From the NCBI RefSeq assembly GCF_013374995.1, contig NZ_CP056030.1, forward strand, positions 2,078,501-2,142,500: DNA of 64,000 nt, written 5' to 3'. Both the position numbers and the translations under genes were made by a program. Below, one piece after another: positions 17,360 through 60,977 of this stretch. Source of the DNA: Pseudomonas eucalypticola. Lineage in GTDB: Bacteria; Pseudomonadota; Gammaproteobacteria; Pseudomonadales; Pseudomonadaceae. The notes beneath the pieces are model-generated. The model saw nothing but the letters and a program-made list of their open reading frames with translations, made no database searches and was not told the DNA's origin. Within the stretch, counting starts at the first letter, position 1. Each line of letters opens with the position of its first letter.

Positions 17360-17370
17360 CATACCTCCTA

Positions 17371-17949: not shown

Positions 17950-18071
17950 CGGGGGAGTTCAGTTCTCGAACAGCTTGAGGGCATCGGATTCGCTCAGCAG
18001 TTCCTTGGCCTCCGCGAGGCGGAGTAGCATATTCCGGTTCATATCAAACCAGGTCGCAGAGGGAGCCGCTG

Positions 18072-45221: not shown

Positions 45222-46216
45222 GATGCATGGCCTTGTGTATGCGGTTGACCAAAGAGCGCCGTCAGGTGCGCCTGGTATGGCTTGATGAAATGTTCCTCGG
45301 CGAACGCCCCTTGCTCGATGGCCAGGCGGCTGCGCTCTGCTCGGTCGTAGACGATGCGAGTCAGCGAATAATCCTGATGCTGCAAGCTTGGCTGGAAGGA
45401 TTTTCCGGCGGCTGAATTCGCGTTGTAGATTTCAGGCCGGTAGATCTTCTGGAACGTGTCCATCGTGCTGATGGTGCTGATGAGTTCCAGGTCGGTGTAG
45501 TCCCCGAGCAAATCGCCGGTAAAATAAAAAGCCAGGGGCGCAACACTGTTCGGCGGCATGAAGTAACGAACCTTCAGGCCCATTTTCCGGAAGTATTCAT
45601 CCGTCAGCGAGTATTCGTCTTGCTGGTACTCGGCGCCCAGCACCGGATGCTGGTTTCCCGTTTGATGGTAGACCTTGCTGCTGGAAACACTCAGGCAGAT
45701 AACGGGCGGTTTGCGGAAGTGACACGTGTAGGCGCTCGACGCCACGAAGGACTGGAACAGCTGGCCATGGAGGTCGCCGAACCCCTTCGGGGTACTGAAT
45801 TCGGACCGGCCGTCGTTATGGCCTGGCAAGAGTACGCTGAAGTCATAATCCCGGACGTAAGAGGAGAAATTGTTGCCGACGATGCCGTCAATGCGTGCGT
45901 TGGCTTGTTGGTCGATCACCGTTGTTTTCAATAGCTCGATCAGCGGCAGTGCAGTGCCGCTGCCGTCAAGATCAATATTCATTTCGACGGAGATGACATC
46001 AAGCTCAACGGTATAACGATCGCCTGTCGGGTTGTCCCAATGCGCCAGCGCATTGAATCGATTATCGATCATCGCCAACGTATTGCGTAAGTTCTCCTGG
46101 CGATTGCAGCCTCTGGCGAGGTTGGCGAAGTTGGTGGTGATGCGTGTAGTGTCCGAGGGGGTGTAATGCTCATCGAAGCGAATGCTTCGGAGGGTGAAAT
46201 CGACGTCATGGCTCAT
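45218..46216 (-). CDS. mesX: MesX (DUF1852), partner of core methionine synthase
   Basis: 332 residues of the DUF1852 family: FTLRSIRFDEHYTPSDTTRI at the N terminus, VELDVISVEMNIDLDGSG, LPGHNDGRSEFSTPKGFGDL, and the C-terminal HFIKPYQAHLTALFGQP. MesX is required for MesD-dependent methionine synthesis in bacteria that carry the pair; the methyl donor and the chemistry were not settled when last known to me. First gene of the two-gene operon, with a MetR-type site 128 bases upstream. Confidence 0.92.
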   Translation of the reverse strand: MSHDVDFTLRSIRFDEHYTPSDTTRITTNFANLARGCNRQENLRNTLAMIDNRFNALAHWDNPTGDRYTVELDVISVEMNIDLDGSGTALPLIELLKTTVIDQQANARIDGIVGNNFSSYVRDYDFSVLLPGHNDGRSEFSTPKGFGDLHGQLFQSFVASSAYTCHFRKPPVICLSVSSSKVYHQTGNQHPVLGAEYQQDEYSLTDEYFRKMGLKVRYFMPPNSVAPLAFYFTGDLLGDYTDLELISTISTMDTFQKIYRPEIYNANSAAGKSFQPSLQHQDYSLTRIVYDRAERSRLAIEQGAFAEEHFIKPYQAHLTALFGQPHTQGHAS

Positions 46217-46469: not shown

Positions 46470-49196
46470 TCAGTGACCGAGTTGCACGGTCACTGCGCTG
46501 TGCAGGCCATAGGGCTGGAACGGCAGCGGCGCATAGATCGCCGCTTCCTCTTGCTTCATGCGATTGTTCAGTGTCGAGGCCATGGTCAGTTCCACGGTAT
46601 TGCGCCCGGCATGGGCGTACTGGCTGACGACCACCTCGCGCAGGTGTGGGTCGGCCGCCACGACATGGCCGTTCACCTTCAGTTGCCAGAGACCGTCGCC
46701 AGCCGGTATCCCCAGGCGCACGGCGGTGGTGCCTGCGGTCAGCAGGAAGGCGCCCCGGTAGCTGGCGCGGCCGGACAGGTTGCGCAGGCCGTCGACCTCA
46801 GACCACGGGCCCTGGGGGGCCGCGCCCACGGCGTGATGCTGGATACGGGTGGTGTAGCCATCCGCGGCCGGGCCCCAGTCGTCGAGTTGCAACGTGGCGT
46901 TGCTCAACGCCACCGGCACTTGCCAGCGCACGGCGGGCGCGGCAGTGGCGGTGAAGTGTTGCCCCAGGGCGAACGCAATCGCCTGGCCAGGTTGCAGCTC
47001 GACTTCAGTGCCCAAGCTGTCCGGCGCCTGAGGGGTGAACGCCACGGGCACGACCTTGCCGCTCCAGGCGTCCAGTTGCACCAGCTTGCCTTGGCCGCGC
47101 AGAGCGATCTGCGCCTTGTAGACCTGCTGGCCGGTATTGACCAGCCAGTAGTAGTCGTTACCTGCGTCGCGACGATGCACGCTGTAGACCCCGGCCACGC
47201 CCGGTACGAAGCCTGGCTGCACATGCAGCGTTTGCAGCGCGCTCAGGGCCTGCGAGTAGTCGGCGACTCGCGTAGCCCCCTCAAGCGCCAGGTCGCCGCC
47301 CACCACCAGCACCGGTGCGCCCTGGGCGCTCACGGCGCGCAGGCGCTGGCGCACGTCGACAGCCAGTGGCCGCCGGCCGTCCACCAGCAGCGCCTGCCAT
47401 TGCCCATGCCCCATAACCAGGCGGTGGTCGTGCCAGGCGAGGCCATGGCTAAGGACCTGCTGGCTGCTGATGAACCCGTAGTGGTAGCCGGCCTGGGCCA
47501 ACGATGAATCCGCCAGCAGCGGCCCGTCGTGATCCAGTTCGTCGTTGAGCACCACCAGTTCGGTCTGGGCCGTGCCATGGCGCAGCAGCGCCTGGGTGCG
47601 TGCCAGGTAACCGGTGATCTGCGGCATATCCGGCCAGGACGGCTGACGCGGCCCCCAGGCTTCGGAGAAACCATTGTCGATAGTCGGCGAAAACAGGCTG
47701 GGCCCAAACGGCTCGAACGGTGACCAACCCGGCCAGCGTGCCGTTGGCACCTTGCCCGAGTACGGGTAGCCGTGCACGGTGATCTGGTTGACGCCACCGG
47801 CGTAGTGCAGTTGCAGCACAGTGAGCATGTCGGCCCAGCTTTGCCGGTAGCTGCCGCCGATCACCGAACAGCATTCGGTGGAGAACTCCCCGCGGCCTTG
47901 AATCTGGCCGGCGGTGCCCAGCAGGCGGAACAGGTCCAGCTCGTTGTTCAGGGTCAGGTTCTCGCCTTCGGGGGTGTCGGCCTGTTCGGCCGCGGCGCCC
48001 ATGTCCATGGGCTGGCCGTAGGTCTGCACGCGGTAGCCCAGGCCCAGGCTGTGGGCCCATTTGGCCAGCGGTTGCAGGTGGTGTTCGCGGTACAGGTCGC
48101 TGAGGGTGCGTTCGTAATCGCGGTACACCTCGCTTGAGTGGGCCGTGGCACTGGCCAGTTCGAAGGTGGGCACGCGGGTGCGCGGGGCGCCGAAGTGGCG
48201 CTGGTTGTCGACGATGATCAGCGGCAGCAGCGGTTCCATGCGGTAGCCACGGCGCTGGGCGAAGGCGTCGGGCAAGCCGGGTGTCCAGTTCAGGTGCGCG
48301 TCCAGTTCCAGGGAGTCTTCGAACAGGTCGCGGCCGTGCTGGCGAATCAGGCCCTTGAGCGTCGGGTTCAGGAGATTGGCTTCCCAGTAGCCGGTGACGG
48401 CCTGGCTGCCAGCGTCGGCGAAGTGGTCAGGCACGTAGGCCTGGGGGGCGCTGGCGGCGGGGTTTTGCTTCATGACGGCCAGGGCCGAGGTCTGCCCGGT
48501 ACCGCGCTGCCAGTAGGCGATGATGATCCAGTGGCCGCCTGGGGGCGCCTGCCAGTGCAAGGTGTCGTCGGTGTTGAGTTCGATCAGCGAGTCGGTTTTC
48601 AGGCGGATAGGCTGTTCAGCGCATTGGTCGGCACATTGCCAGGCCTGCGCGGCCACCAGGTGCTGCTGGTTGATGGGCGGGGCTTGGCTTCTGGCGGGTT
48701 GGGGCAGTGGCGCCGAATAGGTGTCCTGACCGGCCAGCACTGTCCAGCCGGCCACCAGCTCCTTGGCGGCTTGCGCGCCGTTGGGGTCCAACCCCGGCAC
48801 CACCACGGGCCACGCCGGGCCCAGGGTGAGCGATACACGCAGACCGTTGTTCGCGGCGGCGCGCAGGGTGGCTTCCAGCACCGTGCGCCACGCCGGCGTG
48901 CCCCAGCCGTAGCGCGCCGGGTCCACGGGGCCGGCGTTTTGCGGCAGGTCGGCGACCTCGACACTGCCGAAGCCGGCCTGGGCAATAGTGTGCATGTCCT
49001 GGGCAATCACGGCGCTGTCGGCCTGGGCACCCGGTAGCCAGTAACGGATGCTGGGCTTGAAGGGCTGGGTGGGGGCCTCGAACAGCGGGCGCAGGCGGTT
49101 GAAGTCGTCGGCGGCGTGGGCAACCGCGGGCAGGCCGGTGACCAGGCAGGTGCAGGCCAAAGCCCTGGCGAGCAGGGAGGGCAGGGTGGTGGGCAC
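46470..49196 (-). CDS. exported GH106 alpha-L-rhamnosidase
   Basis: 908 residues with a Sec signal peptide (MPTTLPSLLARALACTCLVT to AHA). GH106 signature after the signal: FKPSIRYWLPGAQADSAVIA and AQAGFGSVEVADL, then WGTPAWRTVLEATLRAA. The middle contains the (beta/alpha)8-type catalytic region (GRDLFEDSLELDAHLNWTPG, GRGEFSTECCSVIGGSYRQS, GGVNQITVHGYPYSG), and a jelly-roll near the C terminus ends with HLREVVVSQYAHAGRNTVEL. GH106 enzymes remove terminal L-rhamnose. Last gene of the eight-gene operon, 36 bases after the membrane-protein gene. Periplasmic location is inferred from the signal peptide. Confidence 0.85.
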   Translation of the reverse strand: MPTTLPSLLARALACTCLVTGLPAVAHAADDFNRLRPLFEAPTQPFKPSIRYWLPGAQADSAVIAQDMHTIAQAGFGSVEVADLPQNAGPVDPARYGWGTPAWRTVLEATLRAAANNGLRVSLTLGPAWPVVVPGLDPNGAQAAKELVAGWTVLAGQDTYSAPLPQPARSQAPPINQQHLVAAQAWQCADQCAEQPIRLKTDSLIELNTDDTLHWQAPPGGHWIIIAYWQRGTGQTSALAVMKQNPAASAPQAYVPDHFADAGSQAVTGYWEANLLNPTLKGLIRQHGRDLFEDSLELDAHLNWTPGLPDAFAQRRGYRMEPLLPLIIVDNQRHFGAPRTRVPTFELASATAHSSEVYRDYERTLSDLYREHHLQPLAKWAHSLGLGYRVQTYGQPMDMGAAAEQADTPEGENLTLNNELDLFRLLGTAGQIQGRGEFSTECCSVIGGSYRQSWADMLTVLQLHYAGGVNQITVHGYPYSGKVPTARWPGWSPFEPFGPSLFSPTIDNGFSEAWGPRQPSWPDMPQITGYLARTQALLRHGTAQTELVVLNDELDHDGPLLADSSLAQAGYHYGFISSQQVLSHGLAWHDHRLVMGHGQWQALLVDGRRPLAVDVRQRLRAVSAQGAPVLVVGGDLALEGATRVADYSQALSALQTLHVQPGFVPGVAGVYSVHRRDAGNDYYWLVNTGQQVYKAQIALRGQGKLVQLDAWSGKVVPVAFTPQAPDSLGTEVELQPGQAIAFALGQHFTATAAPAVRWQVPVALSNATLQLDDWGPAADGYTTRIQHHAVGAAPQGPWSEVDGLRNLSGRASYRGAFLLTAGTTAVRLGIPAGDGLWQLKVNGHVVAADPHLREVVVSQYAHAGRNTVELTMASTLNNRMKQEEAAIYAPLPFQPYGLHSAVTVQLGH

Positions 49197-49232
49197 GGGG
49201 GCAGTTCCTTTGTCGAATCGAGTCCGAGGGGC

Positions 49233-49739
49233 TCAGGTGGGCGACCGTTCGCTGGCGGTCAGCGCGGCTTTCAGAATCCATGGCGCGGAGACCGCGCCGA
49301 CCAGGGCGGCGTAGACCATCTTGAACGCCACGAATGGCCAGAAGGCCAGGGTGTCCACCGCCAGGGTCATCAGCGCCAGGCAGGTCGCTGGCACCAGAAC
49401 GACGGTCATCAGCACGGCGACGATGAGGGTGCGGGCGGCCAGCGGCAATGAGGCCAGCGCGACAATCCACGAGGATGGGCGGGCCTGGGGCGCGGCGATG
49501 CGGCCCAGGCGCACGCGCTGGCGGGTGAGCAGCGAGATGGCCAGGCTGCCGAACAGGGTGAGCATGAACACCGTGGGTATCAGGTCGATGGCGATGCCTT
49601 TCGTGCCCCATAACGGAATGATGGCGGCGTCGTGAAACAGCAGGGCGGCGAAAAACAGGGCGATGGCGGCGTTGATCGCGCAGCCCAGCAGGGTTTCGCG
49701 CTGGATGTAGTGCGGGGCAGGGACGGGGGCGTGGTTCAT
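49233..49739 (-). CDS. four-helix membrane protein of unknown function
   Basis: 168 residues with four hydrophobic segments (about 18-36, 48-68, 90-120, 125-155) that look like a duplicated two-helix unit: AINAAIALFFAALLFHD and FPFVAFKMVYAALVGAV-like halves. No transporter or enzyme motif. It lies between the carboxylesterase and GH106 genes in the same operon (84 and 36 bases), so it may assist uptake or envelope handling of the substrate. No family recognised with confidence. Confidence 0.65.
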   Translation of the reverse strand: MNHAPVPAPHYIQRETLLGCAINAAIALFFAALLFHDAAIIPLWGTKGIAIDLIPTVFMLTLFGSLAISLLTRQRVRLGRIAAPQARPSSWIVALASLPLAARTLIVAVLMTVVLVPATCLALMTLAVDTLAFWPFVAFKMVYAALVGAVSAPWILKAALTASERSPT

Positions 49740-49823
49740 GCGGTTACACCTGATTTATTGTTCGTGTCCAGGGTAGGTACAGACCGGTGATTCGATGAGG
49801 CCAGCCAGGCTGGCCACAAGGTT

Positions 49824-50720
49824 TCAGGTAACGCGAGTGACGGCTTCCAGGAAAGTGAGCAGCGGCGTGCTGAGCGAAGTGTCGGCGGTGCCGATGCTGA
49901 AGCCCTGGGAGAAATGGTTGTGGTTGGGCAGTACCAGCAGTTCGGGGCTGAAACCGTGCTGGCTGACCAGCCGTGCGAACAGCTCACCGGCCTGCACCTG
50001 CATTTGCACCAGGTCCAGTTGGGTAAAGCCGATGAGCAGCGGGAAGGGCGCGCTCGACACGTGGTCGACGGTGCTGGCGCTATCCCACATCGCCGGGTCG
50101 CTGCCGAAATAGGCTTCGTTGCGCGGGTCGGGCGTGTCGATGCCGAACTGTTTCCGCGCCTTGCCTTCCAGGCGGGCGTTGTAGGGGCCCGACAGCAGCA
50201 CGGCGCCGCGGATGTTCCAGCCAGGCGGTTGAAACGCTGCGCGCAGTGCCGTGGCGGCCACATGGGCCGCGCCCGCCGATTCCCCCATCAGCACGACGCG
50301 GGTGCCGTTCACACCGAATTCAGCACCGTTGTCCTGCAGCCACTGCCACACCTGGGCGACGTCCTGTGGCCCGCACGGCCATTGGCTCTGCGGGGCCAGC
50401 CGGTAGTTGGCCAACACCACGGCATAACCGTGGCGGGTCAGGAAGTGACCGATGTTCTGCCGGTGCGCCTTGCTGCCACGAATGAACCCACCGCCGTGGA
50501 AGAACGCCAGCACTGGCCAGCCGCCGGCCGGTGCCACGCCAGTGGGCGTGAACAGGTCCAGGCGGTGGCGTTCGTGGGGGCCATAGCTCAGGTCCACGTG
50601 CACATTGACCGAGCCGGCGGCGGGCGCTGACTGGGCGTTGGCGTACAGGGCGGCGACGGCAGGCAAGTCATTGCCCACCTCGCGGATGCGCGCCGCCAGT
50701 GCCTCGCTCATGCCGCTCAT
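49824..50720 (-). CDS. alpha/beta hydrolase of the HSL/carboxylesterase family
   Basis: 298 residues, no signal peptide, so cytoplasmic. HSL-family oxyanion motif FFHGGGFIRG (HGGG), nucleophile in LMGESAGAAHVAA (GESAG), acid in IGFTQLDLVQ, and His in LPNHNHFSQGF. The start is the ATG at 50720, which overlaps the amidohydrolase TGA; another Met lies three codons later. In the operon it could hydrolyse an ester or lactone made by the ring-cleavage steps, or cleave acylated substrates. Confidence 0.85.
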   Translation of the reverse strand: MSGMSEALAARIREVGNDLPAVAALYANAQSAPAAGSVNVHVDLSYGPHERHRLDLFTPTGVAPAGGWPVLAFFHGGGFIRGSKAHRQNIGHFLTRHGYAVVLANYRLAPQSQWPCGPQDVAQVWQWLQDNGAEFGVNGTRVVLMGESAGAAHVAATALRAAFQPPGWNIRGAVLLSGPYNARLEGKARKQFGIDTPDPRNEAYFGSDPAMWDSASTVDHVSSAPFPLLIGFTQLDLVQMQVQAGELFARLVSQHGFSPELLVLPNHNHFSQGFSIGTADTSLSTPLLTFLEAVTRVT

Positions 50721-51949
50721 GGCCGTGCTTCCGGGGTTTTGTACAGCTGGCCGTCCTTCATGATCAAGCTGATGTTGTGCTTGTCCTGTAGCACGGTGAC
50801 GTCCTCGGTGGGGTCGCCCTTGATCATCAGCAGGTCGGCCAGGTAGCCGGGCTTGATCAGGCCCAGCTCGTCGCCCATGCCCATGATCTGCCCACCCAGT
50901 TCGGTGGCGGCCTGAAGCACCTCCAGCGGGGTGTAGCCGAAGTGGCGCACCCACAGCTCCAGGTCGCGGGCGTTGCGGCCGTTGGGGTTGAACGGGAAGC
51001 CGTAGTCACCGCCCGGCAACAGGCGGATGCCCCGAGCGCGCAGTTTGGGCACCAGGGCTTTCTGGTGTTCCAGCACGATGGCGGCATCGGCCTTCATGTG
51101 GCTCATGTCGAAATGCGGCGGCGGGTTGGCGTCCAGGGTTGCCTGGATGATGCCGATGGTGGGCGCGACGAAGAGCTCGTGCTTGCGCGATTCCAGCAGA
51201 TCCAGGCCTTCATCGTCGGCATAGGTGCAGTGGTACAGCACGCGAAAACCACTGCGCACGCCGATCTTCACGGCTTCGGCGCCGTGGGCATGGCCGGTCA
51301 GCCAGACGTTGGACTCGCGCGCCTGTTCGCCCGCAGCCATGAGTTCTTCAGCGTCGTACAGCAGTTCGTGCGAGGCGCCGGGCTTGAGTGCGCTTTCACC
51401 GGAGATCAGGAACTTGACAGCCTTGGCGCCCAGCTCGGCGCACGCTTTGACGAAGCTGCGCATGCCGTCGGGACCGCGCTGGTTGCCTTCGACCTTGCCC
51501 GGGTCCAGGTCGGTTTCGTTCGGCGGTTCGCGCTCCACCGACGAGGGAATCAGGCGCGGCCCGGGCATTCCGCCGGAGACGATATGGGCGTTGAGGCTGA
51601 TCTCCAGGGACTTGCTCAGGGCGCCCGCGGAGTAGGCGCTGGTGAAGCCGTGGTCCAGCAGGATGCGGGCATTGCGCGCCGCGGTCAGGGCCAGTTCCTC
51701 CGGTGGCAGGTACATGCCCGGCACGAACTTCTCCACCGACGTCGGCCAGGTGATGTGCGCGTGGGGTTCCACCAGGCCAGGCATCACCACGTGATGGGTG
51801 CAGTCGAAGACGCGCGCATCATGGCTGGACACGGTGTGCGGCGCACGGGCCACCTCGGTGATGCGGTTGCCTTCGACGCGGATCTCGCCGGCGAAGGCAG
51901 CAGCACCGCTGCCGTCGAAAATGCGGGCATTGCGGAATACGACGTTCAT
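50717..51949 (-). CDS. metal-dependent amidohydrolase (imidazolonepropionase-like)
   Basis: 410 residues. Amidohydrolase superfamily: HxH ligand pair in VEPHAHITWPTSVE (about 65), the metal-bridging Lys in KAVKFLISGE, His in LTGHAHGAEA and VLYHCTYADDEG, and the final Asp in LLPGGDYGFPFN. The C-terminal beta sandwich GYLADLLMIKGDPTEDVTVL is the imidazolonepropionase/prolidase-like type. The start ATG 51949 has AAGGAA eight bases upstream. It sits between the flavin hydroxylase and esterase genes; the bond it cleaves in this pathway is unknown. Confidence 0.85.
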   Translation of the reverse strand: MNVVFRNARIFDGSGAAAFAGEIRVEGNRITEVARAPHTVSSHDARVFDCTHHVVMPGLVEPHAHITWPTSVEKFVPGMYLPPEELALTAARNARILLDHGFTSAYSAGALSKSLEISLNAHIVSGGMPGPRLIPSSVEREPPNETDLDPGKVEGNQRGPDGMRSFVKACAELGAKAVKFLISGESALKPGASHELLYDAEELMAAGEQARESNVWLTGHAHGAEAVKIGVRSGFRVLYHCTYADDEGLDLLESRKHELFVAPTIGIIQATLDANPPPHFDMSHMKADAAIVLEHQKALVPKLRARGIRLLPGGDYGFPFNPNGRNARDLELWVRHFGYTPLEVLQAATELGGQIMGMGDELGLIKPGYLADLLMIKGDPTEDVTVLQDKHNISLIMKDGQLYKTPEARP

Positions 51950-51992
51950 GGACTGTTCCTTGTAGTTGTAAGCAGTCACGGCTGAATGAGGT

Positions 51993-53531
51993 TCAAGCGG
52001 TCAAGCGGTGCAGCAGCTCGCGTTGCAAGGTGACCAAGGGGCCGACGCCCGCAGCGGTGGCATACACATAGTGGTCCGGGCGCACGATGGCGGCGGTCAC
52101 GTTGTGGCGGGCGAACCAGGCGGCCAGCAAGCCGTCGGCCTCGGTCAGCATCGGGCTGCCGAGCACCACGCGCTGCATGCCGGTGATGGCCTGCAAGTGC
52201 GCATCCAGGCCCAGGTCGGGGTCGGTCACCACCAGTCGCCAACCACCGCCGAGCACGTCATCCATGCGCTGGCGGGTGCCCTCCTTGAGCAGCCACGGCT
52301 GCGGGAACAGGCTGCCGGCGGCGGGGCTGTCTGCCAACAGGCCGGTGGTCAGGCGCGGCAGGATGTCCTGGCGCGGGGTAGGGCGCACGCTGCCGCCCTG
52401 TTCGTCGAGCAGACGGGTATCGCGGGCGCGCGCCTTGGCCAGGTCACGCTCGCAGATCACTGCGCCCACCGACTTGATGGTCGTGGTCAGCTGGCGCACG
52501 TGTTCCTTGCGCTCGGTGCTGTAGCTGTCCAGCAGGGCTTCGGCTGCCTGGCCCCGCACGCGGCCGTCGAGCACCGCCTGCAGTTTCCAGATCAGGTTGC
52601 TGACGTCGCGCACGCCCTGGCACATGCCCTGGCCCAGGAACGGCGGTTGCTGGTGCGCGGCGTCGCCGGCGATGAATACCCGGCCGACGCGCCAGTGCTC
52701 GGCCACCAGGGCGTGGAAGCGGTAGCTGGCCTGGCGCCACAGTTGCGCGTCCGCGGGGCCGATCCAGCGCTCCAGCAAGCGCCAGGCGCCTTCCGGGGTG
52801 GCGGCCTGCACCGGGTCTTCATCCGGCTTGAGCGAGATTTCCCAGCGGCGGTGGTTACCCGGGCCCATCACGAAGGAGCAGGGGCGCTCGGGTTCACAGT
52901 ATTGCACGCTGGTGGTGGGCAGCTTGGCCAGACCCTGTTCGTTGGCCACCACGTCGACCACCAGCCACGGCTCGTCGAAGTCCAGGTCTTGCAGGGTAAG
53001 GCCGACCTGTTCGCGCACGGTGCTGGAGGCACCGTCGCAGCCGATCAGGTAGCGCGCCGTGACGGTCTTGTGCGTGCCGTTCTCGGCCTTGAGCGTCAGG
53101 GTCACGTCGTCGCTGCCTTGCTGCAACGCCTCAAGCTTCAGGCCGGTGTCGACGGTAACGCTGGGCAGTGCGGCGATCCTGCGGCGCAGCACCGCTTCCA
53201 CCGGCGGCTGGGTGAACACCACCGATGGCTGATGGGCCTGAGGGTAGGGCTCGGGCACCACGGTCATGCGGCGGATCATCTGCCCGTCCAGGCCAAAGTA
53301 GCAGGAGTCGGTGAACGGCTCGCAGTACTGAGCCACTTCCTCGCCAATGCCCAGGTGCTGGAAGACTCGCAGGATCTCGTGGTCCAGCGCGATGGCGCGC
53401 GGCTTGTCGTACACGTCATGGGCGCGGTCGCACACGTAGACGTTGACGCCTGCCTGGCCCAACAGCGCGGCGGCGATGGCCCCCGAGGGGCCGAAGCCGA
53501 CGATGGCTACATCGTAGTTATCGGCCGCCAT
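51993..53531 (-). CDS. FAD-dependent aromatic hydroxylase (MhpA/FdeE-like)
   Basis: 512 residues of the class A flavoprotein monooxygenase family: FAD dinucleotide fold VAIVGFGPSGAIAAALLGQA at the N terminus, DG motif LIGCDGASSTVREQVG, and second FAD motif VFIAGDAAHQQPPFLGQGMC with GVRDVSNLIWKL. A thioredoxin-like C-terminal tail follows (about 400-512), as in phenol hydroxylase and MhpA relatives. It would hydroxylate the aromatic ring of the aglycone before ring cleavage. Three bases separate it from the upstream FAH gene. NAD(P)H preference cannot be told. Confidence 0.9.
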   Translation of the reverse strand: MAADNYDVAIVGFGPSGAIAAALLGQAGVNVYVCDRAHDVYDKPRAIALDHEILRVFQHLGIGEEVAQYCEPFTDSCYFGLDGQMIRRMTVVPEPYPQAHQPSVVFTQPPVEAVLRRRIAALPSVTVDTGLKLEALQQGSDDVTLTLKAENGTHKTVTARYLIGCDGASSTVREQVGLTLQDLDFDEPWLVVDVVANEQGLAKLPTTSVQYCEPERPCSFVMGPGNHRRWEISLKPDEDPVQAATPEGAWRLLERWIGPADAQLWRQASYRFHALVAEHWRVGRVFIAGDAAHQQPPFLGQGMCQGVRDVSNLIWKLQAVLDGRVRGQAAEALLDSYSTERKEHVRQLTTTIKSVGAVICERDLAKARARDTRLLDEQGGSVRPTPRQDILPRLTTGLLADSPAAGSLFPQPWLLKEGTRQRMDDVLGGGWRLVVTDPDLGLDAHLQAITGMQRVVLGSPMLTEADGLLAAWFARHNVTAAIVRPDHYVYATAAGVGPLVTLQRELLHRLTA

Positions 53532-53534
53532 GGC

Positions 53535-54401
53535 TCAGGCTCCTTCGGCCAGGATCGGGTTGCGCAGCAGGCCGACGTTTTCGATTTCGACTTCCACCAC
53601 GTCACCGGCTTTCATCCACAGTTGCGGGGTGCGGGCCTGGCCAACGCCGGCCGGGGTGCCCATGGCGATGACGTCACCCGGCTCCAGGGTCAGGCACTCC
53701 GACAGCAGCGAGATGGTTTCGGCGACCGACCAGATCATGTCGCGGGTGGTAGCGTCCTGCATGATTTCGCCGTTCAGTCGGCACTGGATGCGCAGTCCGC
53801 TGGCGCCGGCAGGCAGCTCATCAGCGGTGACCACGACCGGGCCCAGGGCGCCGGTGGCGTCGAAGTTCTTGCCGATGGTCCACTGTGGGGTGCGCTTCTG
53901 GTAGTCGCGCACCGACATGTCGTTGAAGCAGGTGTAGCCAAACACGTAGTCCAGCGCATCGGCCTGGCTCACATGGCGCGGCACCCTGGCGCCGATGACC
54001 ACGGCAAGTTCGGCCTCGAAGTCGAAGCGCTCGGAGACCTTGGGCACGCGCCCGGCCACTTCATGGGCCATCAGTGACGTCTTGCCACGGTAGAAGAACC
54101 ACGGGTATTCAGGCTTGCCGCGGCCGCTTTCGCTGGCGTGGTCGAAGTAGTTCAGGCCCAGGCAGATGGTCTTGCCGGGCTCGGGCACCAGCGGCGCCAG
54201 TTGCAGGTCATTGAGCGGCAGGCGCGGGGCCTGGCTGTCGGCGGCGGCCCGGGCCGCTTCGTTCAGGTCGATGCCTTGTTCCAGTGCCTGGCGCAGGTCG
54301 GCCGGTACGTGGGGCACGGCGGCGTTGAGGTCGATGACCTGGTCGCCTTCGATCAGGCCCAGGCGCGGGGAACCGTTATGCAGAAAGGTGGTGAATCGCA
54401 T
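53535..54401 (-). CDS. fumarylacetoacetate hydrolase family protein
   Basis: 288 residues. FAH C-terminal fold: ICLGLNYFDHASESGR, metal ligands in FDFEAELAVVIG and YVFGYTCFNDMSVRDYQ, and SECLTLEPGDVIAMGTPAGV near the end. The family hydrolyses or decarboxylates 2,4-diketo acids and ring-cleavage products. The start is ATG 54401; the frame remains open upstream over the dioxygenase gene, but that is a shadow. It lies directly after the ring-cleaving dioxygenase gene (two-base gap) and before the hydroxylase, a typical meta-cleavage arrangement. Confidence 0.92.
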   Translation of the reverse strand: MRFTTFLHNGSPRLGLIEGDQVIDLNAAVPHVPADLRQALEQGIDLNEAARAAADSQAPRLPLNDLQLAPLVPEPGKTICLGLNYFDHASESGRGKPEYPWFFYRGKTSLMAHEVAGRVPKVSERFDFEAELAVVIGARVPRHVSQADALDYVFGYTCFNDMSVRDYQKRTPQWTIGKNFDATGALGPVVVTADELPAGASGLRIQCRLNGEIMQDATTRDMIWSVAETISLLSECLTLEPGDVIAMGTPAGVGQARTPQLWMKAGDVVEVEIENVGLLRNPILAEGA

Positions 54402-54403
54402 TG

Positions 54404-55312
54404 TTATTGTCCTTGCTCTGGGGAGGTAAAGAAGACGTTGCGCTGGGCGGCCTTGAGGGCCGGTGACGGTGGCTGTGAAATGCCCCACTGGTCCACGCGG
54501 CCCTCGGGCCAGGTCCAGTCGTCTGGCGCGCCGGCCTGGTAGCTGTCGTCGATCTGCTCGACGTCGGCGGTGTATTCGATGACTTCGCCGAAGGGGCCGA
54601 TGAAGTAGTTGAAAGCGTTGTTGCCCGGGCCGTGACGGCCGGGGCCCCACTCGATGGGGTGCTGGGCGTCGCGCATGCGGCCGCCGCCGCGCATCACCGA
54701 TTCCAGGTCCGGCATCAGGAAGGCGATGTGGTTGAGCGCGTCGTTGTCGGTCACGCCCAGGGCGATGGAGTGGTGGTCGTGGTCGCAGTTGAGGAAGGCC
54801 ATGATCTTGGTGCGGTCGGACAGGCGGAAGTCCAGCACGCGCTCGAAGAACGCCTGGGACTGCGCCACGTCGTGGCTATTGAGCACGGCGTGGGCCAGGC
54901 GGATGGGGCGGTCCACGGCCTCGAACGGCGCGGTGTTGCGCGCATCGCCATGCACGATGCGCAGGATCCGGCCATGGGGGTCGCGCAGGGTCAGGGCCAC
55001 GCCGCCGCCCGGCTCGGTCACGTTGACCTGGTCTTCGATGATCTGCCCGCCGTTGGCCAGCGCGGCTTCGCGGATCTGCCCCAGGGCGTCGGCGTCCCTG
55101 GCGCGCAGGGTGACGTTGCGGATCGCCAGGTGGGCGGCCTGGTGCAGGGCCAGCAGGTGGTGATCGGCACCCGTGCCTTTGAGGTAGATGGCCGTGTCGG
55201 TGCGCGCGGCGATCTCCAGGTGCCAGACGCGGGTGTAGAAGTCCTCGGCGAGCGCCAGGTCGGGTACGTCGAGCGCGACGCTGCGCAATGCCTGAATCCA
55301 TTTGGAAGCCAT
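54404..55312 (-). CDS. two-domain VOC extradiol-type ring-cleavage dioxygenase
   Basis: 302 residues with two glyoxalase/bleomycin-resistance (VOC) modules, about 7-120 and 135-265, as in type I extradiol dioxygenases (BphC/catechol 2,3-dioxygenase). Iron ligands appear in the second module: His in RLAHAVLNSHD, His in DALNHIAFLM, and Glu in GEVIEYTADVEQ. It probably opens a catecholic or trihydroxylated ring produced by the flavin hydroxylase. Second gene of the operon, three bases after the first gene. Confidence 0.88.
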   Translation of the reverse strand: MASKWIQALRSVALDVPDLALAEDFYTRVWHLEIAARTDTAIYLKGTGADHHLLALHQAAHLAIRNVTLRARDADALGQIREAALANGGQIIEDQVNVTEPGGGVALTLRDPHGRILRIVHGDARNTAPFEAVDRPIRLAHAVLNSHDVAQSQAFFERVLDFRLSDRTKIMAFLNCDHDHHSIALGVTDNDALNHIAFLMPDLESVMRGGGRMRDAQHPIEWGPGRHGPGNNAFNYFIGPFGEVIEYTADVEQIDDSYQAGAPDDWTWPEGRVDQWGISQPPSPALKAAQRNVFFTSPEQGQ

Positions 55313-55315
55313 AGG

Positions 55316-56362
55316 TCAACCCCTGCCTGTGTAAGTCGAGCATGCAAGAAAACGTTGGGCGTTGCCGTGCAGCAGAGCCTGAATGCCGGCGTCGTCCAGG
55401 CCACATTCGTGCAACCGTGCCACGGGTTTGCGTTCGTGAAAATTGAAGGGGTAGTCGCTGCCCAGCAGCAGTTGGCTGGCGCCGAATGTATCGATCAGGT
55501 GGCGCAGGGTCGGGGCATCGAAGACCAGGGTGTCGAAGTACAACTGGCGCGCCTGTTCGCTGGGTGAAATGGCCATGCTGTCGCGCAGGGTGGGAAAGGT
55601 TTTCCAGCCTTGCTCCAGGCGTGGCAGCAGCGAGGCGAACGTGCCGCCGCCGTGGCTGAACGCCAGGCGCAGGCCGGGGCAATCGCGCAGCAGGTTGCCG
55701 GTGATCACGCTGGCAGCGGCCAGGCCCACGTCGCTGGGGTAGGCCAGCACTTGCTGCAACTGCGCAGGCCCGCTGAGGCGGTCCATGCCGCAGGGCTTGA
55801 GGGCGTGGACGAACACGGGCACATCCAATGCCACACAGGCCTGGAAGAAAGGCCGCAGGCTGGGGTCGGCCAAGGTCACACCGTTGATGTTGCTGCCCAG
55901 CTCGACCGCTACCAGGCCCAAGGTGCCTGTGGCGTATTCCAGCTCGGCGATGGCCAGGTCCACATCCTGCAATGGCACCGCGGCCATGCCCAGCAAGGCA
56001 CCGCCACTTTCGTCGCACAGTTGCGCCATGGATTCGTTGATATAACGCAGCAGCGGCTGCGCGTGCTGCGCCGCCAGCCAGTAGCTGAGCAGCTCGGGCA
56101 TCGGCGAGATGACCTGGTGCGCCAGACCCATGCCCGGCAGATCGGCCAGGCGCCGCGGCAGGCTCCAGCATTGGTCGGACACGGTTCGGTAATGCTTGCC
56201 GTCGATCATCACGTGGCAGTGGCAATGGCCATCGTGTGAGGGTATCTGCATCAAGGAGGGCCAGCCGGCGGGCACATGCCTATCGGCCCAGGTGGGGAAG
56301 CGGTCCGGTACGAAATGGGCGTGGATATCGGTGCCCAGGTCTTTGGAGAGCTGGATGGTCAT
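55316..56362 (-). CDS. ACMSD-like amidohydrolase (decarboxylase/hydratase family)
   Basis: 348 residues of the amidohydrolase_2 (COG2159) family that includes aminocarboxymuconate-semialdehyde and 2,3-dihydroxybenzoate decarboxylases. Metal ligands: HxH in TDIHAHFVPDRF (residues 14-16), His in VFVHALKPCG, His in LAFSHGGGTF, and Asp in LLGSDYPFNFHE. First gene of the operon; a sigma70-like promoter and candidate operator lie 33-76 bases upstream. In ring-degradation clusters such enzymes decarboxylate or hydrolyse C-C bonds of cleavage products. Confidence 0.88.
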   Translation of the reverse strand: MTIQLSKDLGTDIHAHFVPDRFPTWADRHVPAGWPSLMQIPSHDGHCHCHVMIDGKHYRTVSDQCWSLPRRLADLPGMGLAHQVISPMPELLSYWLAAQHAQPLLRYINESMAQLCDESGGALLGMAAVPLQDVDLAIAELEYATGTLGLVAVELGSNINGVTLADPSLRPFFQACVALDVPVFVHALKPCGMDRLSGPAQLQQVLAYPSDVGLAAASVITGNLLRDCPGLRLAFSHGGGTFASLLPRLEQGWKTFPTLRDSMAISPSEQARQLYFDTLVFDAPTLRHLIDTFGASQLLLGSDYPFNFHERKPVARLHECGLDDAGIQALLHGNAQRFLACSTYTGRG

Positions 56363-56394
56363 GGTCGTGGCTGTTTTTATGATTGTGTCGGCAA

Positions 56395-56438
56395 ATCCTA
56401 TATAAAATGATTTTTGGTGGCAATATAAAATATTAAAA
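56395..56438 (-). promoter_or_regulatory. promoter and operator of the aromatic/glycoside operon (site A)
   Basis: Minus strand: -35 TTGCCA (56418-56423), 17-base spacer, -10 TAGGAT (56395-56400), with an upstream AT-rich block GCAATATAAAATATTAAAA (plus-strand reading, 56420-56438) containing the inverted repeat AATAT-N3-ATATT. Nearly the same block with identical spacing occurs at 60934-60977. The probable ligand is the adjacent GntR/FCD regulator. Confidence 0.7.
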
Positions 56439-56509
56439 ATTGCGGTATCAGCTTGCTTACAACGGTCGAGGCCTCGCTCAGTGCCTGGCGGAGGCCCCGC
56501 GGAAGGTCA

Positions 56510-56935
56510 CTAGCGCGCGGTCAGGCCCGCTGTCTCGATGCCAGCCGTGACGACCCGTTCGTCTTCGTCGCCGGTTCCGCCAGAGGCACCCACCGCCCCC
56601 AGCACGTTGCCCGCAGCGTCTAGCACCAGCATTGCGCCGGTGTGCGGAATGAAGGGTTGGCCGCTGGTGGTGGCGATCGCGCCGAAGAAAGCTGGCATTT
56701 CACTGGCTTTCTTTGCTAATAATCGCGTATTCGCCCCCATGCCGACGGCAGCGCAGGCTTTGCCCGTGGCGATGGAGAGGCGCAGCGCGGTGGCGCCATC
56801 CTCGCGCGAACAGGTGATCACCGCACCTGCGGTGTCGACCACCGCGATCGCCATGGGCTGGAATTGATGATCGCGTGCGGCTTGCAAAGCGCCGTGCAGA
56901 GCGGCTTGGGCCAGATCGAGGGTGAGTGTGGGCAT
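56510..56935 (-). CDS. GlcG/HbpS-family (DUF336) protein
   Basis: 141 residues. GlcG/HbpS fold: LDLAQAALHGALQAARDH at the N terminus, MAIAVVDTAGAVITCSREDG, and the C-terminal GAMLVLDAAGNVLGAVGASG. The family is named for a haem-binding member but is common as a small accessory protein in aromatic and glycolate catabolic clusters with no settled role. It is divergent from the GntR gene, with an AT-rich operator-like block in between. Confidence 0.88.
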   Translation of the reverse strand: MPTLTLDLAQAALHGALQAARDHQFQPMAIAVVDTAGAVITCSREDGATALRLSIATGKACAAVGMGANTRLLAKKASEMPAFFGAIATTSGQPFIPHTGAMLVLDAAGNVLGAVGASGGTGDEDERVVTAGIETAGLTAR

Positions 56936-56944
56936 GACGGCTCC

Positions 56945-56960
56945 TTTTTATATATTAAAT
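56945..56960. promoter_or_regulatory. operator-like AT block between the HbpS-like and GntR genes (site C)
   Basis: TTTTTATATATTAAAT resembles the core of sites A and B (TATAAAATATTAAAA). Position between the regulator and a divergent gene suits autoregulation. Weaker match than A and B. Confidence 0.4.
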
Positions 56961-57043
56961 GAACGGTGCAGGCGTATCTGATATGATTGGCTGCGCAATC
57001 GCAACCCCGACTGCTTGTTTTTCATTCTCTGGTGCATTTACCC

Positions 57044-57751
57044 ATGGCTCGAACCCCTGCTGTCAGCATCGATAACCGCCCCTCTACCCGCGCCACTGAC
57101 CTTTATGATCAGCTGCGCGCGGACCTGATCAACGGTCAATTGGAGCCTGGCAGCAAGCTGGTGATCGATGCCTTGGCGGGCCGCTATGCCACCAGCGCGA
57201 CGCCGTTGCGCGAGGCGCTGAACCGGCTGATTTCCGATGGCCTGGTGGAAAAGCGCGAACTGCGTGGCTTCGTTGTTGCGGAGGTCAGCGAGCAGGACCT
57301 GGTGGAAATCACCAAGACCCGCTGCTGGCTGGAGGAAATTGCCCTGCGCGAGTCCATTGCCCGCCGCGATCGGGCGTGGGAAGAAGAGGTGGTCATTGCC
57401 CACCATCGCCTGGCGCGCACGCCGCGGTCGCTGTCCCAGGAGCATTTCGAGGACAACCCGGACTGGGAGCCGGCGCACCGCGCGTTTCACCGGGCGTTGA
57501 TCAGTGGGTGCGGGTCGCGGTGGTTGTTGGCGTTCTGTGATCAACTGGCCGATCAGCACCATCGCTATCGCACCCTCTCGGCGCCGCAGGCGTTCACGGC
57601 CAAGCGTGATGTGAAGTCCGAGCACCAGCAGATCATGGAAGCGGCGGTGGAAGGCCGGGCGGATGAGGCCGTGGGGTTGTTGCGCGGGCACATCGAGCGC
57701 ACGGCGAGCATCGTGCGCGCGGACTCGCCGTTGTTCATTCAGGGGCGTTGA
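57044..57751 (+). CDS. GntR-family (FCD subgroup) transcriptional regulator
   Basis: 235 residues. N-terminal winged HTH: ATDLYDQLRADLINGQLEPG, then TSATPLREALNRLISDGLVE and LRGFVVAEVSEQD. The FCD effector domain (about 85-225) has metal-site residues in EPAHRAFHRALISG and SEHQQIMEAAVEG. I chose ATG 57044 (MARTPAVSIDNRPS); the frame also opens 19 codons upstream in AT-rich promoter DNA. It lies between two catabolic operons that share a candidate operator and is the obvious repressor candidate, with an aromatic or organic acid as inducer. Confidence 0.92.
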   Translation: MARTPAVSIDNRPSTRATDLYDQLRADLINGQLEPGSKLVIDALAGRYATSATPLREALNRLISDGLVEKRELRGFVVAEVSEQDLVEITKTRCWLEEIALRESIARRDRAWEEEVVIAHHRLARTPRSLSQEHFEDNPDWEPAHRAFHRALISGCGSRWLLAFCDQLADQHHRYRTLSAPQAFTAKRDVKSEHQQIMEAAVEGRADEAVGLLRGHIERTASIVRADSPLFIQGR

Positions 57752-57779
57752 GCAGATACCCCGCTCCCCCGCCATCTGT

Positions 57780-57867
57780 GTAGCAGCGGCCATGGCCGCG
57801 TCGGCGGTGCACACGGCCTGTCGAGTGGGACGCGGCGCCCGTGACGCAGCCTGGCGGCCACTGCTAA
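57780..57867. repeat. REP/BIME-like repeat between convergent genes
   Basis: GTAGCAGCGGCCATGGCCGC at one end and GCAGCCTGGCGGCCACTGCT at the other form the ends of an imperfect inverted structure. Its reverse complement aligns at both ends with 20954-21043. It occupies the gap between the GntR gene and the convergent GH1 gene. Confidence 0.6.
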
Positions 57868-57877
57868 ACCGTGGGTG

Positions 57878-59215
57878 TCATGCCAGCCCGTTGCGCTGGG
57901 CAATCGCCCCCAGCACCCGGGCGCTGCCCTTCATCTCGCGCTTGAACGTCGCACGGTCCACGGCCACCAGGCCAAACTTGGGCTTGTAGCCAAACAGCCA
58001 CTCGAAGTTGTCCAGCAAGCTCCAGTGCACATACCCCAACACCGGCACCCCGTCGTGCATGGCCCGCTGCAGCCCGGCCAATGCCTCGGGAATGTACGCC
58101 TGGCGCCGCGAGTCGTTGGCCGTGTTGATGCCATTTTCGGTGACGATCACCGGTTTGCCCGTGGCCTGGTGCGCATAGCGAACGGCGCCTTCCAGGGATG
58201 CCGGGTAATATTCCTCGCCACTATCGGTCAATTCCGCACCCTTGGGCGGTAGCATGGCGCCCTGGGCATTCACCTGCTGCCGGCCATAGTTCTGCACGCC
58301 AATGAAATCCGCCGAGGTCTTGGCCGCTTCCATCCACGGCCCGTAGACGCTTTCGCGCTTGGCGTCGCGCTGGCTGTCCGGGCCCACGGCCTGGTCGTCG
58401 GTGATGGACAGGCTGACGCCCACCCACGCCTGCGGCGCCGCCGATTTGATCGCTTGATAACCTTTGCGGTGGCCTTCCAGCATCCGCTTCAGCTTGGGCT
58501 GGTACTGGCCGAAGTTGGCCACCGAATAGTTGGCGCTGCCGGTTGCCCTGGCTGCCGCTTGCAGCATTTGCGCTTCCACGGCCTTGAACGCTGGCGGGAA
58601 GGGCAGCGGCAGCCAGTCCAGGATCGCCAGGATGTTGGGTTCGTTGAGGGTGGTGGCGTAGCTCAAATGGCTGCCCAGGTGGGTGGCCGCACGCTCGCAG
58701 AAGCGGGCGAAAAGGTCCGGGGCCCCGTCCGCCTCCCAGCCACCGCGTGCGGCGAACCAGCGCGGCGTGGTGAAGTGGTTGAACGTGACCATGGGCGTGA
58801 TGCCGCGCTCAAGGCAGCTACCCATCATGCGTTTGTACAGATCCAGCATCGCCACGGAAAACTGGCCCTCGGTGGGCTCGATGCGTGCCCATTCCAACGA
58901 GAACCGGTAGGTGTTCAGGCCCATGCCTTTCACCAGGTCCACGTCTTCGTTCCAGCGGAACAGGCTGTCACAGGCATCGCCGGAGCGCTCGGCGAACACC
59001 GTGGGGGTCACCTGTTCCAGTAGCCAGACATCGGCGTCGCTGTTGTTGCCTTCTATCTGGTGCCCGGCGGACGCGGCCCCCCACAGGAAGCCTGCGGGAA
59101 AGGCCGAGGTCTTGCCGGCGCCGTAGCCCAGGCCCGGCAGGCTGGCGGCCAGCGCCAGGGTGGCGCCACCGACCAACACGTCACGGCGGCTGAGTGGGGC
59201 AGAGGTATTTTTCAC
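57878..59215 (-). CDS. Tat-exported GH1 beta-glucosidase
   Basis: 445 residues from GTG 59215, preceded by GGAAA eight bases upstream. Twin-arginine signal LSRRDVLVGGATLALAASLP is at residues 8-27. GH1 features: FPAGFLWGAASAGHQIEGNN, acid/base Glu in YATTLNEPNIL (about 195), nucleophile Glu in VIVTENGINTANDSR (about 360), and LLDNFEWLFGYKPKFGLVAV. Exported GH1 enzymes are unusual, as most are cytoplasmic. With the GH106 enzyme it could strip a rhamnosyl-glucose disaccharide in the periplasm. Cotranscribed with the porin gene (31-base gap). Confidence 0.9.
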   Translation of the reverse strand: MKNTSAPLSRRDVLVGGATLALAASLPGLGYGAGKTSAFPAGFLWGAASAGHQIEGNNSDADVWLLEQVTPTVFAERSGDACDSLFRWNEDVDLVKGMGLNTYRFSLEWARIEPTEGQFSVAMLDLYKRMMGSCLERGITPMVTFNHFTTPRWFAARGGWEADGAPDLFARFCERAATHLGSHLSYATTLNEPNILAILDWLPLPFPPAFKAVEAQMLQAAARATGSANYSVANFGQYQPKLKRMLEGHRKGYQAIKSAAPQAWVGVSLSITDDQAVGPDSQRDAKRESVYGPWMEAAKTSADFIGVQNYGRQQVNAQGAMLPPKGAELTDSGEEYYPASLEGAVRYAHQATGKPVIVTENGINTANDSRRQAYIPEALAGLQRAMHDGVPVLGYVHWSLLDNFEWLFGYKPKFGLVAVDRATFKREMKGSARVLGAIAQRNGLA

Positions 59216-59246
59216 GATCTCGATTTCCTTTTTACCAGTGTGTTCT

Positions 59247-60683
59247 TCAGCGATGCATGCCCGAGTCAAGCCCCAGGAAACTTTCCAGCTGGACATGGAA
59301 CAGGAAGCCCGCCGACACGCCGGCCTTGGGGGCAATGCCATCGAACGGGTTGACGGTGTTGATCGGGTCCCAGGTGTACATCACATAGGGGCTGACCACG
59401 ACCCCGCGGGTCAGGATCAGGTTGGCGTCCAGCTCCAGTGCGTATTCGCCACCGGGGCTTGTGTAGTCCTGGCCCACCGAGCGGTAGGCGGCGTTGATGT
59501 ACTTCTGTTCATGGTCGCTGAGTTGCACCCAATGGGCGCTCAGCGAGTAGGTGTCATAGGGGCGTGACTTGAATGGCGCGGACAGGATCAAGCCGGTGCT
59601 GACCTGGTTGGGAATGCCGTTGGGCACATCCTCTTCGAACACGTGGCTGCCGGCGAAGTAGGCGCTCAGGGCCGTGGGCGTCATGTCCTTGGACTGGCCG
59701 CCATCGGCGCGCCAGAAGGTTTTCTTCAGGCCCAGGTAAAAGCCGTTGAGGCCGTTGGTGGTGGCGGGCGCATGGGCCGAATCGCTGAGCTGCGCGGTGC
59801 CAGCCGTGGTGTAGTACGGGTCGTTGCCGTCGCGGGTGTTGTGGAAACCCACCAGTTCATAGGATTGCGGATACGCCGTGGTGGAAAAGTCGGTGCGGTA
59901 GGCCACGTTGGCCAGGTAGGTGGTGGACATGTTGCCGCCCGAGGAGCCAGCGCCACGTTCCCAGCCATTGGCGAAGGGATAGGCGTCGTTGACCCGCCAG
60001 GTGCCCACCTGAGCGCTCAAGGCCGGGGTGAACTGGTAGTTGAGCCGTGCGCCCCAGTTGGCATAAGGCGATGGGTTGGCGCCCGCGGCGTCCGGTAGCG
60101 TGGTGCAGCCCAGGCCGACGTTGCACAGTGGCAGGGCAAAGTAGTTGCCGGCATTGCTGATACCGCCTTCCACCGTCAGTTGGTCCTGCAGCAGCTTCTG
60201 TTCCAGTGTGAACAGGGTCAGGTGGCTGACGCGGGGAATGTACGGGCTCGACTTGCTCGACAGCACGTCACCGGCTTGCGCGCCGAAATCCAGGTTGTTG
60301 CGGTACGGCACGTACAGCTCATTGAAGTGCAGGCGGGTGCCGTGCCAGCCCAGGATTTTCTCCAGATCGACGTCCACGCCCACATCGAACAGTGTCAACG
60401 ACTCGTGGTTGCCGGTGTCGGTGCCCACGCCCGGGTTGGCCAGGTAGAACTGGGTCAGCCCCAGGTGCGGGCTGACGCCGTGGTCGTCCAGCCATTTGCC
60501 TTGTTTTTCCAGCGGGGGCGGGGTCATCACCGGAATGAAGGAGTCCGGGATGGCAACGCTGGGGCCAATCGGCTCGCCCGGGTATTCCAGGCTGGCCAGT
60601 TCAAGCTGCGCCAGGTCGGCAAAGCTGGGCGTTGCACACAACAGCGAGACAGCGAACAGCGAATACGGGGCGTATTTGTTCAT
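59247..60683 (-). CDS. OprB-family carbohydrate-selective porin
   Basis: 478 residues with a signal peptide (NKYAPYSLFAVSLLCATPSF). Outer-membrane barrel of the OprB family: WLDDHGVSPHLGLTQFYLAN, FDVGVDVDLEKILGWHGTRL, HFNELYVPY, the C-terminal YALELDANLILTRGVVVSPY, and GVSAGFLFHVQLESFLGL. It probably admits the glycoside or released sugars. First gene of the operon with the GH1 glucosidase. Its candidate promoter (site B) lies about 240 bases upstream, leaving a long leader. Confidence 0.9.
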   Translation of the reverse strand: MNKYAPYSLFAVSLLCATPSFADLAQLELASLEYPGEPIGPSVAIPDSFIPVMTPPPLEKQGKWLDDHGVSPHLGLTQFYLANPGVGTDTGNHESLTLFDVGVDVDLEKILGWHGTRLHFNELYVPYRNNLDFGAQAGDVLSSKSSPYIPRVSHLTLFTLEQKLLQDQLTVEGGISNAGNYFALPLCNVGLGCTTLPDAAGANPSPYANWGARLNYQFTPALSAQVGTWRVNDAYPFANGWERGAGSSGGNMSTTYLANVAYRTDFSTTAYPQSYELVGFHNTRDGNDPYYTTAGTAQLSDSAHAPATTNGLNGFYLGLKKTFWRADGGQSKDMTPTALSAYFAGSHVFEEDVPNGIPNQVSTGLILSAPFKSRPYDTYSLSAHWVQLSDHEQKYINAAYRSVGQDYTSPGGEYALELDANLILTRGVVVSPYVMYTWDPINTVNPFDGIAPKAGVSAGFLFHVQLESFLGLDSGMHR

Positions 60684-60784
60684 GGAGACCTTCTTTTTTT
60701 ATTGTTGTGGCTCTGTTCACAAGGCGCACGAGTCCCTGGCCGGCGCAGGCGGCACGTTCGGCAATGCTTGCGGTGGATCAGGTA

Positions 60785-60910
60785 TCAGGGATGCGGGTGG
60801 TCGGATGGCCAGGGCGGGTTAGCCACGCAGGGAGTGTCGAGGGCGCACGGCATGCTGCGGGGAGCAGCGTCTACCGCTGCCTGGAGCTGGGTAGTGGTCA
60901 TGGCGGTCAT
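60785..60910 (-). other. 41-codon leader frame downstream of site B
   Basis: ATG 60910 (or 60901) opens MTAMTTTQLQAAVDAAPRSM and stops at 60785. Its start is placed exactly as the first gene start is placed in site A, and the surrounding bases (CCATGACCA...CCAGCTC) match that gene's start. It may be the stub of a gene lost between promoter and porin, or only leader sequence carried with a duplicated promoter. Confidence 0.35.
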
Positions 60911-60933
60911 TTTTATGATTGTTGGTGCTCAGA

Positions 60934-60977
60934 ATCCTATACAGAAGTAAATACGCACGCAATATAAAATATTAAAA
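60934..60977 (-). promoter_or_regulatory. promoter and operator of the porin/GH1 operon (site B)
   Basis: Minus strand: -35 TTGCGT (60957-60962), 17-base spacer, -10 TAGGAT (60934-60939), upstream block GCAATATAAAATATTAAAA at 60959-60977. The block, hexamer spacing and downstream ACAATCATAAAAA are shared with site A. Confidence 0.7.

Follow-up and report, generated by a model that had tools for sequence, protein, structure and literature searches.

A putative two-operon regulon for rhamnosyl-glucosylated plant polyphenols in Pseudomonas eucalypticola

The closest characterised cluster that could be placed beside the locus presented here is hcdABC, its relatives being identified by composition; together with hcdDEFG it serves 7-hydroxycoumarin in Pseudomonas mandelii 7HK4, according to excerpts of two papers (PMC6222606; PMC7913881). 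Flavonoids are broken down by the clusters fde (naringenin, Herbaspirillum) and ifc (isoflavones, Variovorax), each with a flavin hydroxylase and a VOC-type dioxygenase, and ifc additionally holds two paralogous cupins, IfcD1/D2 (PMC11069340; excerpts of PMC11303751 and PMC4440368 were also consulted on these clusters). This study concerns positions 46470..60977 of a 64,000-nucleotide stretch (the window) of the 6.4 Mb genome of Pseudomonas eucalypticola, where a hydroxylase, a dioxygenase and an FAH-family hydrolase occur together with a GH106 alpha-L-rhamnosidase and a GH1 beta-glucosidase. With middling confidence, we read the locus as a two-operon regulon for using a plant polyphenol that carries rhamnose and glucose and contains a phloroglucinol-type ring, a flavonoid being the likeliest candidate. 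If true, one bacterial regulon would cover both the deglycosylation of such a compound and the cleavage of its ring, and its genes would be candidates for handling the A-ring half of flavonoids. No paper on this gene set was found by title or abstract start in the open-licence PMC literature, which is not proof of absence.

Locus layout and the shared promoter block

Two minus-strand operons were delineated. The first (60683-57878) encodes an OprB-family porin and the GH1 enzyme; the second (56362-46470) encodes, in this order, an Amidohydro_2 protein (AH2), a VOC dioxygenase, an FAH hydrolase, a flavin hydroxylase, an Amidohydro_1 protein (AH1), an esterase, a 168-aa membrane protein and GH106. 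Between them lie an HbpS-like gene and a divergent GntR/FCD regulator. Upstream of both AH2 and OprB stands the pattern TTTAATATTTTATATTGC-N17-TATAGGAT (18 bp, N17, 8 bp), identical at both operons and followed by ACAATCATAAAAA; the arrangement recurs in the sister loci, on the AH2 side in L003 and on both sides in L004. Allowing up to 3 mismatches, the whole genome contained two matches to the block, both perfect and both at these operons; a reversed-pattern control over the same 6.4 Mb gave none, and shuffles of the window never produced the block. When 30 bases of the two promoters were compared without gaps, the score was 23, the highest of 60 shuffles being 20; this result is weaker than that of the pattern search. 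The end of the interval in the original prediction, 60977, fits the second copy of the block. The two operons thus probably form one regulon, as that prediction had proposed, since the identical block, a candidate cis element, stands at both and nowhere else in the genome.

The block was twice present in each of two (G386 and G051) of 20 other Pseudomonas genomes and absent from the remaining 18. These two are sister species and the sole other cluster carriers among those genomes. With up to 5 mismatches, only L003 and L004 displayed it among the 16 loci inspected outside the window, the other 14 having none. Some of these 14 carry a GntR regulator about 70% identical to that of the window, and binding of GntR to the block is therefore not claimed. 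In G386 (the L18 genome) the copies lie 14 kb apart, the second upstream of OprB, because an extra gene block separates GntR and GH1-OprB. This extra block (L195, 2110-11398) encodes an AMP-/acyl-CoA ligase, two enoyl-CoA hydratases, a thiolase, an SDR, an MFS protein and an Amidohydro_2 protein, and might serve to process the aglycone's side-chain half.

The features of the locus are the following.

46470..49196, minus: GH106 alpha-L-rhamnosidase, 908 aa, Sec-type signal peptide by reading (PF17132, 110 bits, cut-off 29)
49233..49739, minus: 168-aa membrane protein with about 4 hydrophobic stretches (hydropathy)
49824..50720, minus: alpha/beta hydrolase (esterase) of Abhydrolase_3/BD-FAE type, GESAG motif, no signal peptide by reading
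50717..51979, minus: AH1, Amidohydro_1 metal hydrolase (profile match)
51993..53531, minus: class A flavin hydroxylase of MhpA/HcdA type (NF004829, 499.5 bits, cut-off 390)
53535..54401, minus: FAH-family hydrolase/isomerase (PF01557, 225 bits)
54404..55312, minus: two-domain type I extradiol dioxygenase (VOC), 302 aa (PF00903, matched in two stretches; HpaD-like under cut-off)
55316..56362, minus: AH2, Amidohydro_2, ACMSD-like (PF04909; ACMSD structures 148.6 bits)
56395..56437, minus: promoter block upstream of the AH2..GH106 operon (sequence pattern)
56510..56935, minus: HbpS-like protein (PF03928)
56987..57751, plus: divergent GntR/FCD regulator (PF00392 and PF07729)
57878..59215, minus: GH1 beta-glucosidase with Tat motif, 445 aa (PF00232, 212 bits)
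59247..60683, minus: OprB-family carbohydrate porin (PF04966, 127.5 bits)
60934..60976, minus: second copy of the promoter block, upstream of OprB-GH1 (sequence pattern)

The starts given for GH1 (GTG), the esterase (ATGA overlapping AH1) and FAH are the probable ones, and by reading GntR may truly begin at an ATG near 57044. Expected motifs were recognised in GH1 (TLNEP and VTENG, besides the Tat motif SRRDVL) and in the dioxygenase (His141 and EVIEY). In GH106, the stretches with DSLE and FSTE correspond to the acid and base regions of BT_0986/5mqm, whose residue numbering follows an excerpt of PMC6828813; the underlying alignment is weak but continuous and keeps DSxE and the E593 position. 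All families named in the original prediction matched and its genes are real, while its text had left out the HbpS-like gene and the GntR/FCD regulator. It had also considered the 168-residue membrane protein as a possible aglycone transporter, which found no support: its relatives numbered 11 at E <= 0.001, itself counted, and it looks small for an ordinary transporter. A weak match to it in Croceibacterium (38 bits) was disregarded. Beside the cluster, a separate pair at 44193-46216 of the window joins MesX to a Meth_synt_2 gene (MetE C-terminal type).

Recurrence of the gene set in other bacteria

Within Pseudomonas the gene set is rare. A hydroxylase at least 90% identical occurred in 3 of 398 genomes, own included (E 1e-100), and the remaining matches were one genome at 56% and 22 at 42-47%; GH106 was found in 4 of 396 genomes, three of them cluster carriers. 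The nearest named relatives are Pseudomonas sp. T1-3-2 (L004) and 'Pseudomonas silvicola' (P0001). The fourth GH106 match (G214, C1:3099814-3100567) consists of two short separate frames and may be what is left of a gene for a different GH106 type. In L004, a tandem partial duplication at 12810-18515 places the esterase end, the 168-aa protein and the GH106 start twice. A class-wide AH1 search of 274 genomes (E 1e-120) gave no match outside the own genome.

Patterns from the window's own hydroxylase retrieved 257 loci, and the following counts refer to the best 80, of which 20 are shorter than 19 kb; genes in fetched loci are our own picks of open reading frames (ORFs), some labelled by reading. 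These loci were mostly from Burkholderiales, where a core of HbpS, AH2, VOC dioxygenase, FAH and flavin hydroxylase is common without glycosidases. VOC was present in 75, FAH in 71, AH2 in 60 and HbpS in 47; AH1 (11), the esterase (12), GH106 (6) and GH1 (3) were much scarcer, and quercetinase occurred in none. Clustering placed a TctC-family binding protein in 61 loci, and tblastn in 66, suggesting that on its own the core is used for a small aromatic acid. All 11 AH1-positive loci carried the esterase, and GH106 occurred in 6 of them as opposed to 0 of the 69 AH1-negative loci (naive Fisher p 1.5e-6, ignoring kinship, the near relatives L003/L004 and L062/L081 being counted separately). This rule is limited to the 80 loci, since a Croceibacterium cluster carries GH106 without AH1.

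GH106 adjoined the core together with GH1 in Pelomonas KK5 (L015, GH1 39% identical), Pseudoduganella (L069, 50%) and G584 (L162, 48%), and with no GH1 within the fetched stretch in Duganella (L062, L081). Among the four closest Oxalobacteraceae matches (245 genomes), it was present in G398 and G584. On sphingomonad plasmids, five of nine opened AH1-hydroxylase-VOC-FAH regions held both GH106 and GH1 (L087, L090, L091, L093, L094). The GH106 enzymes of sphingomonads, L069 and L162 were 51-84% alike, and those of L062/L081 38-39% identical to them. The window GH106 shared 21-25% with this PP1Y-type group, and the Pelomonas one about 26% with both. With 27% identity or less between the Pseudomonas, Pelomonas and Oxalobacteraceae/sphingomonad types, we infer that distant GH106 types were recruited separately to the core. 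The original prediction had linked both a rhamnosidase and a beta-glucosidase to ring cleavage, which is supported, since the combination recurs in several lineages of bacteria from soil and plants. As distant glycosidases accompany one and the same functional set, comparing the clusters offers a way to test the substrate.

Region L090 of Novosphingobium sp. PP1Y contains GH106, AH1, hydroxylase, HbpS, VOC, FAH and GH1. The PP1Y enzyme RHA-P is reported to be active on flavonoid glycosides (excerpt of PMC10653915) and presumably corresponds to the L090 gene. The neighbours of this gene include an FGGY sugar kinase and, with a score just under its cut-off, a xylose-isomerase-like gene, in keeping with sugar use.

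A further association was met with quercetinase. Nine plasmid records matched a Croceibacterium bicupin whose best solved relatives are quercetin 2,3-dioxygenases, and six were opened. On three of them, all alphaproteobacterial, the hydroxylase-VOC-FAH core lay within about 10 kb of the quercetinase. The Croceibacterium cluster also has GH106 and GH1, that of Alloyangia two alpha/beta hydrolases, and that of Rhizobium rhizoryzae AH2, HbpS and a 52% identical GntR. AH1 went undetected in all three, and no core was seen within the opened stretches of Thioclava, Salipiger and Klebsiella. The hydroxylases linked to quercetinase fell in two tree branches, the protein trees being quick searches with long branches. 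On a Klebsiella variicola plasmid from banana (L171, 8666-15123), annotated GH1, quercetin 2,3-dioxygenase and alpha-L-rhamnosidase genes stand close together, perhaps as a rutin-use cassette without the core.

Candidate pathway and competing explanations

In the pathway that we propose, OprB would admit the glycoside, and GH106 in the periplasm and GH1, exported by Tat as its signal motif predicts, would take off rhamnose and glucose. The aglycone would next be split hydrolytically in the cytoplasm by AH1 and the esterase, yielding the A-ring half as phloroglucinol or its carboxylate; AH2, being ACMSD-like, might decarboxylate this carboxylate or a later acid. The flavin hydroxylase would then add a hydroxyl group, the VOC dioxygenase open the ring, and FAH cut the resulting dioxo acid, which, if it is malonylpyruvate, would give pyruvate and malonate. 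What the sequences show directly are the families, the motifs, the shared block and the recurrence of the gene set; which substrate is used, in what order the steps run and which regulator acts is our inference, as is export, which was judged from signal motifs. The substrate class of the original prediction, a flavonoid-type rhamnosyl-glucoside, is strengthened by the recurrence of GH106/GH1 with the core and by the promoter block. Malonate decarboxylase and hydroxycinnamoyl-CoA hydratase-lyase genes, both over cut-off in the own genome, fit the products and are not specific to the pathway.

Quercetinase together with an esterase yields protocatechuate and 2,4,6-trihydroxybenzoate, and to break down the latter, an acylpyruvase would be needed besides a hydroxylase and an extradiol dioxygenase. 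The position of quercetinase beside the core suggests that the core acts on a released A-ring fragment and not on the intact flavonoid. More tentatively, the core could be an aerobic phloroglucinol/2,4,6-trihydroxybenzoate route in which AH1, as a new C-C amidohydrolase replacing quercetinase, frees the A-ring half from flavanone- or dihydrochalcone-type aglycones.

Several observations weigh against the flavonoid glycoside pathway. GH106 was not seen in five of the 11 AH1-positive loci, in two of the four closest Oxalobacteraceae loci (L160, L161) or in four of the nine sphingomonad AH1 regions (L085, L095, L096, L097; for L096 the annotation was relied on, and L097 is truncated where its record begins). 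The window GH106 is itself distant from the PP1Y type, and one Sphingobium GH106 is reported to act on steroidal saponins (excerpt of PMC10653915). The solved-structure relatives of AH1, which include Xaa-Pro dipeptidase, arginine carboxypeptidase and ochratoxinase, hydrolyse amide or peptide bonds, so that C-C hydrolysis is a conjecture. Neither operon holds an aromatic transporter gene, and a TctC-like protein is missing in sister loci L003 and L004. One bicupin quercetinase query, run without positive control and covering this quercetinase type, gave no match in the own genome; since, in addition, none of the 80 loci and only three of the nine plasmid records, all alphaproteobacterial, combine quercetinase with the core, the quercetinase link is indirect. 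Finally, a complete rhamnose pathway could not be established: the best LRA6-like match (C1:2362 kb) reached 428 bits against a cut-off of 500, and one neighbour, taken for a lactonase, matches fatty acid desaturase.

A rather unlikely alternative is an fde/ifc-like route, in which the hydroxylase would attack C8 of the intact flavonoid A ring, the VOC enzyme would open the ring and the hydrolases would dismantle the remainder. The pairing of flavin hydroxylase and VOC-type dioxygenase in both known clusters, as excerpted above, speaks for it; the frequent TctC-type protein and the lack of GH106 in 74 of the 80 loci better suit a small acid, the core adjoins quercetinase in three plasmid clusters, and no cupin, a component of ifc, turned up among the scanned ORFs of the window.

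Unlikely, too, is an hcd-like ipso-hydroxylation of a phenylpropionate, e.g. 3-(2,4-dihydroxyphenyl)propionate, which would stem from a glycoside of the coumarin, dihydrochalcone or a similar type. It draws on the same three activities in hcdABC and on identities of 42-47% (hydroxylase), about 40-45% (FAH) and about 37-42% (GntR) between the window and loci of hcd content. Yet the dioxygenase there has a single domain of about 185 aa instead of two domains in 302 aa, and hcdDEFG-type reductase and AA_synth genes were not seen among the window ORFs scanned.

That the glycosidases serve another substrate (a saponin or pectin side chain) and merely share promoter and neighbourhood is very improbable given the identical block on both operons and the recurrence of GH106 with the aromatic core in several lineages, even though the saponin activity mentioned above fits it and the sole NCBIfam match of the window GH106 is the model of BT4145, a rhamnogalacturonan enzyme (excerpt of PMC6828813), at 143.5 bits against a cut-off of 1300.

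Comparison with described clusters

Nine of the 22 genomes with a 42-47% hydroxylase were opened (L134, L135, L137-L141, L143, L145). All nine displayed hydroxylase, FAH and GntR; by reading, an alcohol-dehydrogenase-like gene is present too, and the VOC frame measures about 185-222 aa. Profiles for L139 and L140 gave single-domain Glyoxalase, FAA_hydrolase, alcohol dehydrogenase, Cupin_2 and FMN_red, with AA_synth in L139. These loci have the published hcdABC and hcdDEFG composition and are identified by it, not by accession; the 56% locus (L136, G279) was also opened and its content differs. Like the window, hcd unites a class A hydroxylase, a type I extradiol dioxygenase and an FAH hydrolase in one operon, and loci of this content have a GntR-type regulator nearby. 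They differ in their shorter dioxygenase, in extra reductase, cupin and AA_synth genes, and in that no glycosidases, AH1 or AH2 were seen there. Conversely, the alcohol dehydrogenase, AA_synth, cupin and FMN-reductase set did not appear among the window ORFs scanned, which sets the locus apart from hcd.

Clusters fde and ifc, compared by description only, share the flavin hydroxylase and VOC-type dioxygenase with the window; they differ by the cupins of ifc, as the scan of window ORFs from 42 to 64 kb met no cupin, and the excerpted text of PMC11069340 names no glycosidases. Oxalobacteraceae loci L157/L158, with hydroxylases at 26-33%, were considered as fde-like and left without assignment. 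The comparison with fde drawn in the original prediction for the hydroxylase/dioxygenase/FAH set loses weight, hcdABC being at least as good, and an fde-type mechanism is not the one with the best support.

Quercetinase-type clusters resemble the window by the hydroxylase-VOC-FAH core and alpha/beta hydrolases (in Rhizobium also by AH2, HbpS and GntR), and differ by their bicupin quercetinase and by the lack of a detected AH1. Regions of PP1Y (L090) and of tomato-root Sphingobium TomTYG64/65 display a TonB receptor in place of OprB, the distant GH106 type and an extra acetyl-esterase-like gene, and the annotated Sphingobium records a LysR regulator; yet, like the window, they unite AH1, hydroxylase, HbpS, VOC, FAH, esterase, GH1 and GH106 in one stretch.

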